A stretch of 50,318 nucleotides of DNA from an uncultured Ruminiclostridium sp. (GTDB lineage: Bacteria > Bacillota > Clostridia > Oscillospirales > Ruminococcaceae), in assembly GCA_905235805.1 (NCBI GenBank), contig CAJOMV010000078.1:1-50318 (forward strand). The letters run 5' to 3'. The position numbers were made by a program, and so were the translations under genes. The notes under the pieces are model-generated. The model did not search any database. It worked only from the letters and a program-made list of their open reading frames with translations, and was not told the origin of the DNA. Positions 35,368 to 39,534 of the stretch are shown here, piece by piece. Position 1 is the first letter of the stretch. Each line of letters opens with the position of its first letter.

Positions 35368-35814
35368 TTATATATAGTACATAGGCTCCGAGGAACCCTC
35401 GCCGGAAAGCTTGTCGTACTTGTCGGCGATATCGCGGAGCGTGACATTCTCCGCGAACTCCTGGAGATACGCGGTCATCTTGCTCCACAGGCACTCCGAG
35501 AGCGCGTCGGCGATAAGGGACTCCTCCTTGCCGTTGAAGGTGACATCTCCAAGCACGGTGCTGTCGAGGGCATTTATCACATCGAGGAGCGTTATCTTCT
35601 CGGCGGGGCGTGTCAGTATATATCCGCCCTTCGCTCCCTTAACGCTCCTTATTATATCTGCCTGCCGGAGCTGCGGGAGTATCTGCTCGAGATACTTTGC
35701 CGAGATATTCTGGCGGGAGGATATGTTTATGACGGTAACGACGTCATCGTGCGAATAGACGCATATATCAACGAGAGAGATGAGTCCGCATTCGACTTTT
35801 GAGGATATTTTCAT
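35368..35814 (-). CDS. cymR: Rrf2-family regulator, CymR-like, 148 aa
   Basis: Winged-helix repressor: KISSKVECGLISLVDI at the start, a recognition helix around NISAKYLEQILPQLRQADII (about 37-56) and the Rrf2 wing SVKGAKGGYIL. It lacks the three clustered cysteines that bind iron-sulfur in IscR, and its C-terminus (EPMYYI) resembles that of CymR, the repressor of cysteine and sulfur-uptake genes in Bacillus. Its position opposite a sulfur cluster supports that role. The start is set at 35814, with AGGAAG nine bases upstream; an in-frame GTG at 35835 would overlap that site. It probably represses itself through boxes in the shared intergenic region. Confidence 0.82.
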   Translation of the reverse strand: MKISSKVECGLISLVDICVYSHDDVVTVINISSRQNISAKYLEQILPQLRQADIIRSVKGAKGGYILTRPAEKITLLDVINALDSTVLGDVTFNGKEESLIADALSECLWSKMTAYLQEFAENVTLRDIADKYDKLSGEGSSEPMYYI

Positions 35815-35837
35815 AGTGCAGATCTTCCTTTTCACTT

Positions 35838-35961
35838 AATTCCTATCGTTTTAATAAGTATAACACATTTCCGACTCTTTTTGCAATTGTCGGAATAGAT
35901 AAAAATATTCATTTCCTATTAATTCTATATGTTTAATATGTAGAAAAAGCCGAATTCCTAT
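35838..35961. promoter_or_regulatory. putative CymR operator region
   Basis: Three similar boxes: AATTCCTAT (35838-35846), ATTTCCTAT (35911-35919) and AATTCCTAT (35953-35961). The last touches the -35 of the sulfur operon and the first lies just past the -10 of cymR. An inverted repeat TTCCGAC/GTCGGAA (35869-35875, 35889-35895) surrounds the cymR -35. The reverse of the box, ATAGGAATT, is like the core I remember for Bacillus CymR sites. Confidence 0.5.
35857..35886 (-). promoter_or_regulatory. promoter of cymR
   Basis: Minus strand: TTGCAA (35881-35886), 18 bases, TATACT (35857-35862). Weaker -35 than most promoters in the window. Confidence 0.6.
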
Positions 35962-35989
35962 TGACTTACTATGAAAAGCAGGGTATAAT
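35961..35989 (+). promoter_or_regulatory. promoter of the sulfur-assimilation operon
   Basis: TTGACT (35961-35966), 17 bases, TATAAT (35984-35989). It overlaps a putative CymR box. Confidence 0.8.
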
Positions 35990-36031: not shown

Positions 36032-37264
36032 ATGAAATTCAATACTTCACTTTTGCACAGCAGCACTCCGGGCGATAAATTCGGTGCCACACAGACGCCC
36101 ATATACCAGGTGAGCGCATTCTCCCTCGACAGCGCCGAGCACCTCGAAAAGGTGTTCGCCAATAAAGCGGCGGGCTTCGCGTACACCCGCATAGGAAATC
36201 CCACCGTGGACGCGTTCGAAAAGCGCATAGCGGCTCTCGAGGGCGGTATAGGCGCCGTAGCCTGTTCGTCCGGTATGTCGGCGGTGACTATGGGGCTGCT
36301 GAATGTATTAAGAGCGGGCGACGAGGTGATCGCGGGGTCGGGGCTCTTCGGAGGCACGATAGACCTGTTCGGAGACCTGTCGCAGTTCGGGATAACAACG
36401 CGGTTCATCGATACGGTGACAGCCGACAGCGTAAAATCCCGGATAAACGAGCATACCCGGGCGGTGTTCGCCGAGCTGATAGGAAATCCCAAGCTCGACA
36501 TAGTGGATATAAAAAGTGTAGCCGCTGTGTGTCACGAGAACGGCGTGCCGCTCTTCATCGACAGCACCACAGCCACCCCGTACCTGATACACCCCTTCGA
36601 GTACGGCGCGGACATAGTGATACACTCGGCGTCGAAATACATAAACGGCGGCGGCAATTCCATCGCGGGAATGATAATCGACAGCGGCAGGTTCAAATGG
36701 GACACGGCAAGATATCCCGCCTTCGCGGAATACGGGAAATTCGGCAGGTTCGCTTACCTGGCGAAGCTCCGCGGCGGTATATGGCGCAATGTGGGAGCCT
36801 GTCTGTCCCCGTTCAACGCATATATGTGTTCGGTCGGGCTGGAAACTCTCGGAGTGCGCATGGAGCGGATTTGCGACAACGCGAAGAAGCTCGCGGAGTA
36901 CCTGAGGACGCTGGACGGCGTGACGGTGAATTACCCCGCGCTGGAGGACAGTCCCTATTACCCGCTCGTGCAGTCACAGCTCGGCGGAAAGGGCGGCGCG
37001 ATACTCACCGTAAGGGCGGGCAGCAGAGAACGCGCCTTCGCGCTCATCAACGCCCTGAAATACGCGCTCATCGCCACGAACATAGGCGACGTGAGAACTC
37101 TCGTGATCCACCCCGCAAGCACGATATACCTCCACGCCACGGAGCAGCAGCGTGAGAGCGCGGGCGTATACGACGACACGATAAGAGTGAGCGTAGGCAT
37201 CGAAGATATCGAAGACCTGACAGAGGACTTCGGGAATGCGGTGAAGGCTTCACAGGAGCACTGA
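36032..37264 (+). CDS. metY: O-acetylhomoserine sulfhydrylase-like PLP enzyme, 410 aa
   Basis: Cys/Met-metabolism PLP enzyme, expected to join O-acetylhomoserine with a sulfur donor to give homocysteine. It shows YTRIGNPTVDAFEKRIAALE, SSGMSAVTMGLL, the PLP Lys in HSASKYINGGGNS (about 204), and the family-specific stretch ACLSPFNAYMCSVGLETL that favours MetY over cystathionine enzymes. The ending SVGIEDIEDL is also typical. It leads an operon with TusA-like, thioredoxin, carrier and E1-like genes, so the sulfur donor may be a protein thiocarboxylate rather than free sulfide. Methionine gamma-lyase is a less likely alternative. Confidence 0.88.
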   Translation: MKFNTSLLHSSTPGDKFGATQTPIYQVSAFSLDSAEHLEKVFANKAAGFAYTRIGNPTVDAFEKRIAALEGGIGAVACSSGMSAVTMGLLNVLRAGDEVIAGSGLFGGTIDLFGDLSQFGITTRFIDTVTADSVKSRINEHTRAVFAELIGNPKLDIVDIKSVAAVCHENGVPLFIDSTTATPYLIHPFEYGADIVIHSASKYINGGGNSIAGMIIDSGRFKWDTARYPAFAEYGKFGRFAYLAKLRGGIWRNVGACLSPFNAYMCSVGLETLGVRMERICDNAKKLAEYLRTLDGVTVNYPALEDSPYYPLVQSQLGGKGGAILTVRAGSRERAFALINALKYALIATNIGDVRTLVIHPASTIYLHATEQQRESAGVYDDTIRVSVGIEDIEDLTEDFGNAVKASQEH

Positions 37265-37308
37265 CCGCGGACATACAAATATAATAAAAGTATTGGAGGC
37301 AATCAGAA

Positions 37309-37554
37309 ATGGCAGAATTCAACATCACCGACACAGTGGATATCACAGATGTGGTATGCCCCGTAACATTCGTAAAAGCAAAGGTAGCTCTCGACGAGCT
37401 TGACGAGGGCGATATCCTCTCGATAAGGCTGAATGACGGAGAACCCGTGAACAACGTACCGCGGAGCCTGAAGGAAGAAGGACACAAGGTGCTGAAGCTC
37501 TCACAGAATGACGACGGTACATATCAGCTCATCGTACAGAAGGTCGGTGACTGA
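37309..37554 (+). CDS. TusA-like sulfurtransferase, 81 aa
   Basis: Small sulfur-carrier protein of the TusA/SirA fold. The N-terminal DITDVVCPVTFVKAKVALDEL has the active Cys (about residue 17) in the CPxP position, but the second Pro is Thr (CPVT). GDILSIRLNDGEPVNNVPRSL is the usual second half. TusA proteins pass persulfide sulfur between partners; here it probably feeds the carrier or the activating enzyme. GGAGG precedes the start. It lies between metY and the thioredoxin gene, whose start comes one base after its stop. Confidence 0.88.
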   Translation: MAEFNITDTVDITDVVCPVTFVKAKVALDELDEGDILSIRLNDGEPVNNVPRSLKEEGHKVLKLSQNDDGTYQLIVQKVGD

Positions 37555-37555
37555 T

Positions 37556-37873
37556 ATGGCTGAAAGGATAACGGCAGCGGAGTTCAATGAGAAGGTACTC
37601 GGCGCGGGAACGCCGGTGCTTGTGGATTTCTACTCCGACAGCTGCGTACCGTGCAAGATGCTCTCGCCCGTGCTCTCGCAGCTCGAGCGCGAGCTTGCGG
37701 GTAAGCTCGCGATATACAAGGTGAATGCCCCATACGAGCAGGAGCTCGTCGAGCAGTACGAGATACAGGCTTCACCGACACTGGTATTTTTCCGTGACGG
37801 AGCGGAGGTCTCCCGCATCCGGGGCGCTGTAAAAAAGCCCGACATAATCGCGGAATTTGAGAAGATATCATAA
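37556..37873 (+). CDS. thioredoxin-like protein, 105 aa
   Basis: Complete thioredoxin fold with active site SCVPCKM (CVPC instead of the common CGPC) at about residues 26-32 and the cis-Pro in QASPTLVFF. It reduces disulfides or persulfides. In this operon it may release sulfur from the TusA-like protein or recycle the activating enzyme. I start at 37556, one base after the TusA stop; the in-frame extension upstream to 37508 lies inside the TusA gene and is rejected. The CVPC variant may alter redox potential compared with housekeeping thioredoxin. Confidence 0.92.
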   Translation: MAERITAAEFNEKVLGAGTPVLVDFYSDSCVPCKMLSPVLSQLERELAGKLAIYKVNAPYEQELVEQYEIQASPTLVFFRDGAEVSRIRGAVKKPDIIAEFEKIS

Positions 37874-37918
37874 CACACCACTCAACCAAACAATAACAAA
37901 TATAAGGAGAACACAGCA

Positions 37919-38137
37919 ATGAACATAACCGTAGCAGGCGTAAAAAAGGAATTTGAAGACGGTCTCACAGTAGCAAAGCTCATAGAGCTCGAGAATGTGG
38001 AGACTCCCGAATATGTGACAGTGACCGTGAACGATGAGTTCGTAGAGAGCGGCACATTCGCCGAGACAGCTCTCAAGGACGGCGACACCGTCGAGTTCCT
38101 GTACTTCATGGGCGGCGGTCAGCCCCACGGCAATTAA
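37919..38137 (+). CDS. ThiS/MoaD-like sulfur carrier with masked C-terminus, 72 aa
   Basis: Ubiquitin-like sulfur carrier: MNITVAGVKKEFEDGLTVAK, then VNDEFVESG, GDTVEFLYFMGGG. Carriers of this fold end in Gly-Gly, which is activated and turned into a thiocarboxylate. Here the Gly stretch is followed by a short tail, so the protein ends GGGQPHGN. The tail must be removed before activation. A JAMM protease gene lies at the end of the cluster and is the natural candidate, as in the HcyS/HcyD methionine pathway of Wolinella or the CysO/Mec system of mycobacteria. AAGGAG precedes the start; the E1-like gene follows after 13 bases. Confidence 0.9.
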   Translation: MNITVAGVKKEFEDGLTVAKLIELENVETPEYVTVTVNDEFVESGTFAETALKDGDTVEFLYFMGGGQPHGN

Positions 38138-38150
38138 GGAGGACATCGGC

Positions 38151-38957
38151 ATGGCTTTTACAAACGAACAGCTTGAACGCTACTCCAGACATATCATATT
38201 GAAGGAAGTCGGCGCAAAGGGACAGAAGAAGCTCTCCAGCGCCAAGGTGCTCATTATCGGCGCGGGCGGTCTCGGAGCTCCGGCAGCTCTCTACCTCGCC
38301 GCCGCGGGCGTAGGAACTATCGGTATAGTTGACGCGGACGAGGTAGACCTCTCCAATCTCCAGAGACAGGTGATACACACCACCGCCGACATCGGCAAGC
38401 CGAAGGTTCAGTCCGCCAAGGAGACCATGGAGGCTATCAATCCCGACGTAACGGTCAACACATACCATACCTTCGTGACAAGCGAAAATGTTCTCGACCT
38501 GATAAAGGACTACGATTTCATTCTCGACGGCACCGACAACTTCCCGGCAAAGTTCCTGATCAACGACGCCTGCGTAATGTCGAAGAAGCCCTTCTCCCAC
38601 GCGGGAATAATCCGCTTCAGGGGACAGCTCATGACCTACGTTCCCGGTCAGGGACCCTGCTACCGCTGCGTATTCAAGGAGCCCCCTCCGAAGGACGCAG
38701 TCCCCACCTGCCGTCAGGCAGGCGTTATCGGGGCAATGGGCGGCGTAATAGGAAGCCTTCAGGCTATGGAGGCAGTCAAGTATATAGTAGGCTCCGGCGA
38801 CCTCCTCACAGGCTACCTGCTGACCTTCGACGCGCTCAAAATGGAGTGGCGCAAAATAAAGCTCCCCTCCGACACCCATAACTGCGCAGTCTGCGGCGAC
38901 CACCCCACCATCACCGAGCTCATAGACTACGAGCAGGCAGAGTGCACCGACAAGTGA
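38151..38957 (+). CDS. ThiF/MoeB-family E1-like activating enzyme, 268 aa
   Basis: Adenylates the C-terminus of a sulfur carrier. It shows RYSRHIILKEVG, the ATP-binding IIGAGGLGAPAALYLAAAG (about 35-53), DADEVDLSNLQRQ, GTDNFPAKFLIND and zinc cysteines in CYRC and CAVC. A conserved Cys lies in PTCRQAGVIG and may receive sulfur. There is no rhodanese domain, so sulfur should come from another protein such as the TusA-like one. AAGGAGG precedes the start. Its partner is almost certainly the carrier encoded just upstream; MoaD or ThiS elsewhere in the genome are alternatives. Confidence 0.92.
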   Translation: MAFTNEQLERYSRHIILKEVGAKGQKKLSSAKVLIIGAGGLGAPAALYLAAAGVGTIGIVDADEVDLSNLQRQVIHTTADIGKPKVQSAKETMEAINPDVTVNTYHTFVTSENVLDLIKDYDFILDGTDNFPAKFLINDACVMSKKPFSHAGIIRFRGQLMTYVPGQGPCYRCVFKEPPPKDAVPTCRQAGVIGAMGGVIGSLQAMEAVKYIVGSGDLLTGYLLTFDALKMEWRKIKLPSDTHNCAVCGDHPTITELIDYEQAECTDK

Positions 38958-38996
38958 GCTCCTGCGCGCAAACGGGCGGCGGAGACGCGAGAGACG

Positions 38997-39060
38997 CGGG
39001 GGAGGGACTTTTTTGAAAAAAGTCCCTCCCCCGTACCCCCTCTTCAAAAAACTATTAATA
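38997..39060 (-). repeat. dispersed hairpin repeat, copy 2
   Basis: On the minus strand a leader (TATTAATAGTTTTTTGAAGA and a G-rich AGGGGGTAC segment) is followed by a 17-bp perfect stem (38998-39014 with 39016-39032) around one central base. Copy 1 is at 660-735. It sits inside the sulfur cluster, between the E1-like gene and the JAMM gene, where it may weaken or block read-through. Confidence 0.75.
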
Positions 39061-39126
39061 ACTTCGTGCCTAAATACGACAGTTATCTGCTCCTATTGTA
39101 AATATCTTTATAGAACGGAGATAGAA

Positions 39127-39534
39127 ATGATAAGATTACATAAAGAAGATTATGAGAAAATTCTTGCCCACGCAAGAAAAGAAGCTCCCGTGGAAGCCTG
39201 CGGACTTATCGCGGGGCGTATTGACGGAAGTGATAAGTATATCGAGAAGGTCTACATACTGACAAACGTGGATCACGCCGAGGAGCACTTCACACTTGAC
39301 CCGAAGGAACAGCTCGCGTCTGTGAAAGACATGAGGGCAAACGGTCTCGTACCCCTCGGAAACTGGCATTCCCACCCTGTCTCCCCTTCCCGCCCCTCCG
39401 ATGAGGATAAACGCCTCGCGTACGACAGCAAGGCGAGCTACATGATATTGTCGCTTATGGAGGAGGAACCGGTACTGAATTCGTTTCATGTAGAAAACAA
39501 TGAGGCGACAAAGGAAGAGCTTGTGATAGAATAA
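39127..39534 (+). CDS. JAMM/MPN+ metalloprotease (M67), 135 aa
   Basis: Zinc protease with the full JAMM motif: Glu in EACGLIAG (about 22) and HSHPVSPSRPSDED (about 80-93), which gives HxH, seven residues, S and D. Prokaryotic members cleave after Gly-Gly of ubiquitin-like sulfur carriers or release amino acids from them (HcyD, Mec). The cluster's carrier ends with a tail after Gly-Gly-Gly, so this enzyme probably unmasks it. The start is 39127 behind CGGAG; an earlier in-frame reading from 39013 runs through the hairpin repeat and is rejected. Intergenic DNA of 169 bases with a repeat separates it from the E1-like gene, so it may have its own weak promoter. Confidence 0.9.
   Translation: MIRLHKEDYEKILAHARKEAPVEACGLIAGRIDGSDKYIEKVYILTNVDHAEEHFTLDPKEQLASVKDMRANGLVPLGNWHSHPVSPSRPSDEDKRLAYDSKASYMILSLMEEEPVLNSFHVENNEATKEELVIE

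Follow-up and report, generated by a model that had tools for sequence, protein, structure and literature searches.

How is a sulfur carrier put to work when its C-terminal glycines are covered by further residues? The question is raised by a six-gene cluster in a 50,318-nucleotide stretch of DNA from an uncultured Ruminiclostridium sp. (hereafter the window; contig 78, CAJOMV010000078.1, of the 2.43-Mb assembly GCA_905235805.1, which is 80.7% complete). The genes share one orientation and encode MetY, a TusA-like protein, a thioredoxin, a carrier, an E1-like enzyme and a JAMM metalloprotease. We consider it quite likely that the cluster makes homocysteine by way of a protein thiocarboxylate, using a masked carrier, a JAMM protein that performs both trimming and release, and a short-loop MetY. 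The basis for this reading is the gene content, the conserved tail and motifs, the type of MetY and a sulfite reductase gene.

The initial annotation had described these six genes and a carrier ending in GGG followed by QPHGN, and inspection of the sequence with Pfam and NCBIfam confirmed both (Table 1). The Pfam families are, in gene order, Cys_Met_Meta_PP, TusA, thioredoxin, ThiS, ThiF and Prok-JAB, separated by gaps of 44, 1, 45, 13 and 169 bases when the thioredoxin start is taken as ATG 37556 (a longer frame opens at 37508). Because the match of the carrier to TIGR01683 stops at residue 67, the third Gly, we define the tail as QPHGN. An AlphaFold2 model of the carrier adopts a beta-grasp fold with a mean predicted local distance difference test (pLDDT) score of 84.3, residues 65–68 and 70–72 falling below 50; its nearest solved fold is 3cwi. 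The E1-like enzyme is without a rhodanese domain and has two CxxC motifs and the sequence PTCRQAGV. The JAMM protein, whose nearest solved chain is 2kks (E 2.2e-45), contains EACGL and HSHx7SxxD, which we take to be the JAMM motif. The JAMM gene annotated at the end of the cluster kept its complete motif, but its start is most likely ATG 39127, with GGAG just upstream, and not the distant TTG 39013.

We then examined the tail in relatives of the E1-like protein, keeping the best 80 of 443, chosen regardless of tail. The closest of these loci come from Ruminiclostridium and Ruminococcus assemblies, many of ruminant origin. The carrier end was present in 79 of the 80, and a tail followed GGG in every one (57 tails had one residue, 17 had two, 2 had three and 3 had five). 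The initial annotation had named carriers with a bare Gly-Gly end at the equivalent place in relatives as the finding that would speak against it, and none was seen (0/79). Tailed carriers did co-occur with JAMM genes, which the initial annotation had suggested looking for: a JAMM match was present in 78 of the 80 loci, and the genomes of the other two, L041 and L077, have a JAMM gene elsewhere. A tail on all 79 goes beyond chance. Its role as a mask is supported, as is the JAMM protein as its likely trimmer. The tail is kept in presence, but its sequence is not conserved: among carriers of the same length, the ten closest (81–91% identical over 67 residues) end in R, QY, Q, Q, C, QA, C, Q, Q and Q. 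Three more carriers of the family are also tailed.

Tail length was followed across the phylum with a pair of profile searches, each covering 398 genomes in overlapping samples, which yielded 120 fetched loci at 111 places. Apart from the window itself, 80 loci came from the best 83 matches of the first search (of the other three, two were never examined and one was fetched later). The second search had 35 new matches, of which 31 were taken. For nine narrow loci a wider version covering the same place was used. The 115 carrier rows were classed by their neighbour genes, called with purpose-built profiles. We called a fetched stretch a sulfur cluster when two or more of the genes TusA, Sir, MetY, JAMM and CysK were present, weak, ferredoxin-like Sir matches being counted. 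With four carriers beside a ThiG-like gene (L127, L132, L133 and L241) removed post hoc from the JAMM class, each of the 54 carriers in sulfur clusters with a JAMM gene extended past its glycines, by one residue in 7 and by more in 47, six of these 47 being fusions to E1 or CysK; with the four included, the tail was longer than one residue in 47, one residue in 9 and absent in 2 of 58. By contrast, the tail was a single residue in 13 of 13 sulfur clusters with no JAMM in the fetched stretch (hereafter JAMM-less; V in 5, A in 2, N in 2, and I, W, F and L), and hydrophobic in 11. The difference between the two classes in tails of more than one residue versus one was significant (Fisher p 3e-9), and remained so with one locus per family-level group (p 1.6e-4; 5 JAMM-less, G085 left out), with no further correction for kinship; 7 of the 13 JAMM-less loci came from a single family-level group (f24). 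Where fewer than two sulfur genes lay nearby, 42 of 44 carriers were bare. Overall, tails spanned 1–18 residues, up to whole fused proteins. These counts suggest that tails are usual among such carriers and that tail length may follow the available cutting enzyme. The window tail had been flagged as longer than the single residue of the Wolinella carrier; such a length is ordinary.

These numbers also bear on a simpler account, in which the tail is a by-product of gene overlap, a residue or two read past GGG, and no mask. Indeed, most of the 79 loci show a one-base overlap between the carrier stop and the start of E1. However, a gap of at least 10 bases precedes E1 in 11 of the 79, all of which retain the tail, as does the window with its 13-base gap, so that overlap does not explain the tail; the bare carriers away from sulfur genes, the long tails and the fused proteins point the same way. 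We therefore disfavoured this account and regard it as highly improbable.

Several individual loci in the phylum sample deserve description. The two exceptions among the 44 carriers were L155, with a seven-residue tail and a JAMM gene about 7 kb off, and L233, a carrier-E1 fusion with JAMM. In-frame carrier fusions with short linkers after GGG, in loci that also gave a JAMM match, were seen in L123, L177, L179, L232, L233 and L234 (to E1) and in L236 (to CysK). Among the carriers beside ThiG-like genes, those of L127 and L133 end in GGGA and those of L132 and L241 are bare.

How might a carrier be unmasked where JAMM is missing? A genome-wide check of 12 of the 13 JAMM-less loci gave no JAMM match above 28 bits, two weak ones reaching the cut-off. 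Five weakly matching frames were scanned, of which four were RadC and one, in G137 (21 bits, below the cut-off), was unclear and JAB-like; G137 was counted as JAMM-less, with one further weak match in it and the weak match of G327 left unscanned. The thirteenth locus, L258 (genome G085), has a JAMM gene beside MetY, 25 kb from the carrier. An M20 gene lay within 1.5 kb in 7 of the 13 JAMM-less loci and in none of the 54 JAMM-bearing ones (Fisher 2e-6), three of the seven matching by construction, as L166, L169 and L194 had supplied the sequences for the M20 profile. Pfam Peptidase_M20 was confirmed in all three proteins scanned (those same loci). The seven loci (L194, L221, L222, L224, L225, L255 and L256) are sulfite reductase-TusA-carrier clusters, and the M20 gene directly follows the carrier or follows CysK. 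The M20 replacement of JAMM is not universal: in the other six JAMM-less loci no M20 gene was found within 1.5 kb, L223, L252, L254 and L258 showing none and L227 and L253 having one about 5 kb and about 6 kb away. The count was confined to the surroundings of the loci, the M20 family being common.

M20 aminoacylases hydrolyse N-acyl amino acids. A carrier-cysteine adduct is an N-acyl amino acid, and tails of one, mostly hydrophobic, residue fit an exopeptidase. We take both as leads that make the M20 gene a candidate substitute for JAMM, and the JAMM-less variant as the potentially new element here. In its general form the proposal is that carriers serving inorganic-sulfur assimilation are masked as a rule and that the mask follows the protease, with any length, up to an entire fused enzyme, where JAMM, an endopeptidase, is available and exactly one, mostly hydrophobic, residue where it is not, in which case the neighbouring M20 metallo-aminoacylase would trim the residue and release cysteine or homocysteine. 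We put this forward tentatively, at somewhat less than even confidence. The tail rule was not found described in literature on the pathway and on tailed carriers, as surveyed by titles and the beginnings of abstracts, with no search directed at M20 and with subscription papers mostly uncovered.

We next considered the enzyme that would use the carrier. The window MetY scores 429 bits against TIGR01326, under the cut-off of 495.1. Its segment at residues 221–245 corresponds to 23–26 residues in 104 MetY rows from clusters (101 distinct) and to 24 residues in the Wolinella structure 3ri6, versus 35–43 residues in 30 of 30 stand-alone MetYs, a set that favours typical members because it was picked by the highest TIGR01326 scores; the second, stand-alone MetY of the window genome has 36. 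Thus, a loop of about 10 residues is absent from all 101 distinct cluster MetYs and from 3ri6 and present in 31 of 31 stand-alone MetYs, the short flanks of whose loci gave no match to a carrier, a JAMM or TusA. A tree of 137 sequences, left unrooted, splits the 31 stand-alone MetYs from all cluster MetYs and 3ri6 with local support of 0.998. An AlphaFold2 model of MetY (mean pLDDT 71.2, long segments below 50) was not used. The Wolinella MetY takes its sulfur from a protein thiocarboxylate, according to PMC6271081. We infer that the short segment marks carrier use by MetY; the missing loop could serve to sort annotated O-acetylhomoserine sulfhydrylases.

In the scheme that we favour, translation would give an inactive carrier precursor ending in GGG-QPHGN. 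Cleavage after the third Gly by the JAMM protein would expose this Gly for adenylation by the E1-like enzyme. Sulfide from a siroheme sulfite reductase encoded elsewhere would turn the adenylated carrier into the thiocarboxylate, with TusA perhaps handing the sulfide over and the CVPC thioredoxin perhaps keeping it reduced. By analogy with the Wolinella scheme, the short-loop MetY would then couple O-acetylhomoserine with the carrier and its sulfur, after which the JAMM protein would free homocysteine from the carrier.

A number of observations weigh against this scheme. The JAMM gene is separated from the E1 gene by 169 bases, which include a hairpin. No such carrier was found at E 1e-12 in the same-genus genome G562, given as 100% complete, so the cluster is patchy; it was present in 4 of 61 family genomes, the window's own included. 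Within the MetY tree, 3ri6 groups with L145, L177, L232 and L234 near the stand-alone branch and not with the window MetY alone, and the stand-alone MetY of the genome could make homocysteine from free sulfide. Three further points concern the sulfur supply. The sulfite reductase is encoded on a different contig from the cluster. A CysD-like gene near it occupies two reading frames in the assembly (L089 10756-11656), by a sequencing error or because the gene is broken, which leaves the sulfate step possibly defective or misassembled. Moreover, of the 30 genomes searched, namely the window's own and others selected for having a related locus, 12 gave no full-length sulfite reductase match, only ferredoxin-like or no match (G007–G012, G015–G017, G019, G024 and G027, largely draft assemblies), so a reductase-free version may exist.

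The last two points would suit a relay in which a cysteine desulfurase loads TusA with a persulfide, which thioredoxin then reduces, the sulfur passing to the carrier bound to E1. TusA and a thioredoxin do lie within the cluster (of 58 related thioredoxin open reading frames, 27 have CVPC and another 27 have CIPC at the active site), and the E1-like enzyme retains a Cys that is presumably the counterpart of ThiF Cys184. A predicted rhodanese-like role for SirA is reported in Iyer 2006 (PMC1779556). Nevertheless, the window genome has an intact sulfite reductase frame (NIR_SIR) on another contig (G000:C13:11890-12756), 88% identical to that of L003, and the reductase stands between MetY and TusA in 41 of the 67 related loci that hold both. 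We therefore consider sulfide from sulfite the likeliest source here and the reductase-free relay unlikely, unsupported as it is for the window genome. Thioredoxin also co-occurs with an in-cluster reductase, as in L122; TusA and thioredoxin accompany the reductase and are no alternative to it, and the earlier suggestion of a relay different from the sulfite-based version was not supported. By eye, the frames around the reductase on C13 resemble those for sulfate transport, siroheme synthesis (HemA to HemL), an AprA-like flavoprotein/adenosine 5′-phosphosulfate reductase, CysD and CysN.

The carrier might instead serve cysteine synthesis or protein conjugation. A CysK-like gene adjoins the carrier in some related clusters, and E1 plus JAMM modules also occur in defence systems, to which matches here were weak or partial. 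We give this very little credence, as the window cluster includes MetY but lacks CysK, Pfam detects nothing E2-like among its six genes, and the genome has a separate CysK-JAMM-carrier/E1/rhodanese module. The latter (L090, G000:C38, 3895-6672) comprises a CysK-like enzyme, a JAMM protein and a carrier-E1-rhodanese fusion; this second module is of thiocarboxylate type, with the Gly-Gly end of the carrier masked by the fusion.

Around the cluster (Table 1), a divergent Rrf2-family regulator scores above the Rrf2 superfamily cut-off and under those of IscR and CymR. Between it and MetY, positions 35838-35980 contain imperfect repeats with TTCCTAT-like cores, possibly operators, and the promoter-like site ends 42 bases 5′ of MetY. 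The inverted repeat at 39002-39028 is self-complementary except for its central base, has a core that is single-copy in the genome and is not followed by a T-run. Rfam detected no known RNA upstream of the cluster, giving only two tRNAs in the whole window.

Table 1 Features of the cluster and its surroundings, in window coordinates
Feature	Position	Strand	Evidence
Rrf2-family regulator, divergent from cluster	35368..35835	-	PF02082 1.2e-28
Promoter-like site, TTGACT-17-TATAAT	35961..35989	+	11/12 consensus bases; consensus match alone
MetY, predicted carrier-dependent type, short segment at residues 221-245	36032..37264	+	PF01053; segment length, tree
TusA/SirA-like sulfurtransferase, VCPVT motif	37309..37554	+	PF01206 8.3e-21
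Thioredoxin, CVPC active site	37556..37873	+	PF00085
HcyS-type sulfur carrier precursor, 72 aa, beta-grasp	37919..38137	+	PF02597
C-terminal tail codons, QPHGN after GGG	38120..38134	+	Sequence; TIGR01683 end
E1-like adenylyltransferase, HcyF type	38151..38957	+	PF00899 1.3e-88, sole Pfam match
Inverted repeat between E1 and JAMM genes	39002..39028	.	0 expected in shuffles
JAMM metalloprotease, HcyD type, complete motif	39127..39534	+	PF14464 2.4e-24

The masked carrier has implications beyond this locus. In the Geobacter structures 2k5p and 3cwi, GGGK stands where ThiS would end (the 2k5p chain is 8 residues longer, probably a tag), which suggests a place in amino-acid synthesis for part of the proteins now annotated as ThiS of the thiamine pathway. 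The logic of ubiquitin-like precursor processing in bacteria becomes testable with small proteins, and the JAMM-less variant, if true, would be a second solution to unmasking.

The cluster can be compared with several known systems. It shares the carrier fold and E1 family with thiamine ThiS/ThiF, but the window carrier is tailed and no ThiG was present among the eight window proteins scanned, unlike the thiamine system with its bare Gly-Gly end and ThiG neighbour. In the CysO-CysM-Mec+ system of Mycobacterium tuberculosis, a carrier with a bare Gly-Gly end, a JAMM protein and a pyridoxal phosphate (PLP) enzyme make cysteine. The window likewise combines a carrier, a JAMM protein and a PLP enzyme for a sulfur amino acid, but that enzyme is Cys_Met_Meta_PP, not PALP, and so not of the CysK/CysM type. 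Closest is the HcyS/HcyF/HcyD-MetY route to homocysteine that Krishnamoorthy and Begley reportedly described in 2011 for Wolinella succinogenes: as there, the window genome has a tailed carrier, an E1-like enzyme, a full-motif JAMM protein, a short-segment MetY and a sulfite reductase gene. Gene content, motifs, tail and MetY type thus support the annotated route of this type. The window differs in its five-residue tail (the Wolinella tail is said to be one Ala), in having TusA and the CVPC thioredoxin in the cluster and in having the reductase on another contig. The Wolinella work appears as a reference in PMC5764234 and PMC6271081. A Bil/CBASS-type E1-E2-JAB defence system was rejected, the six cluster genes including no E2-like one and the PADLOC matches being weak or partial (the E1-like enzyme matches E1-E2 models over part of their length); in another system, trimming of BilA by BilC offers a precedent, according to PMC11354881. 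The window cluster is a known kind of gene set. In Iyer 2006 (PMC1779556), operons of ThiS-like, JAB, E1-like, SirA and O-acetylhomoserine sulfhydrylase genes have Wolinella and Clostridia among their holders, and JAB was proposed to cleave ThiS/MoaD off fused partners. Class 4e as listed there also has sulfate/sulfite genes, and the word thioredoxin does not occur in that text; the window matches this class in its ThiS-like carrier, JAB, E1 without rhodanese, SirA and O-acetylhomoserine sulfhydrylase.

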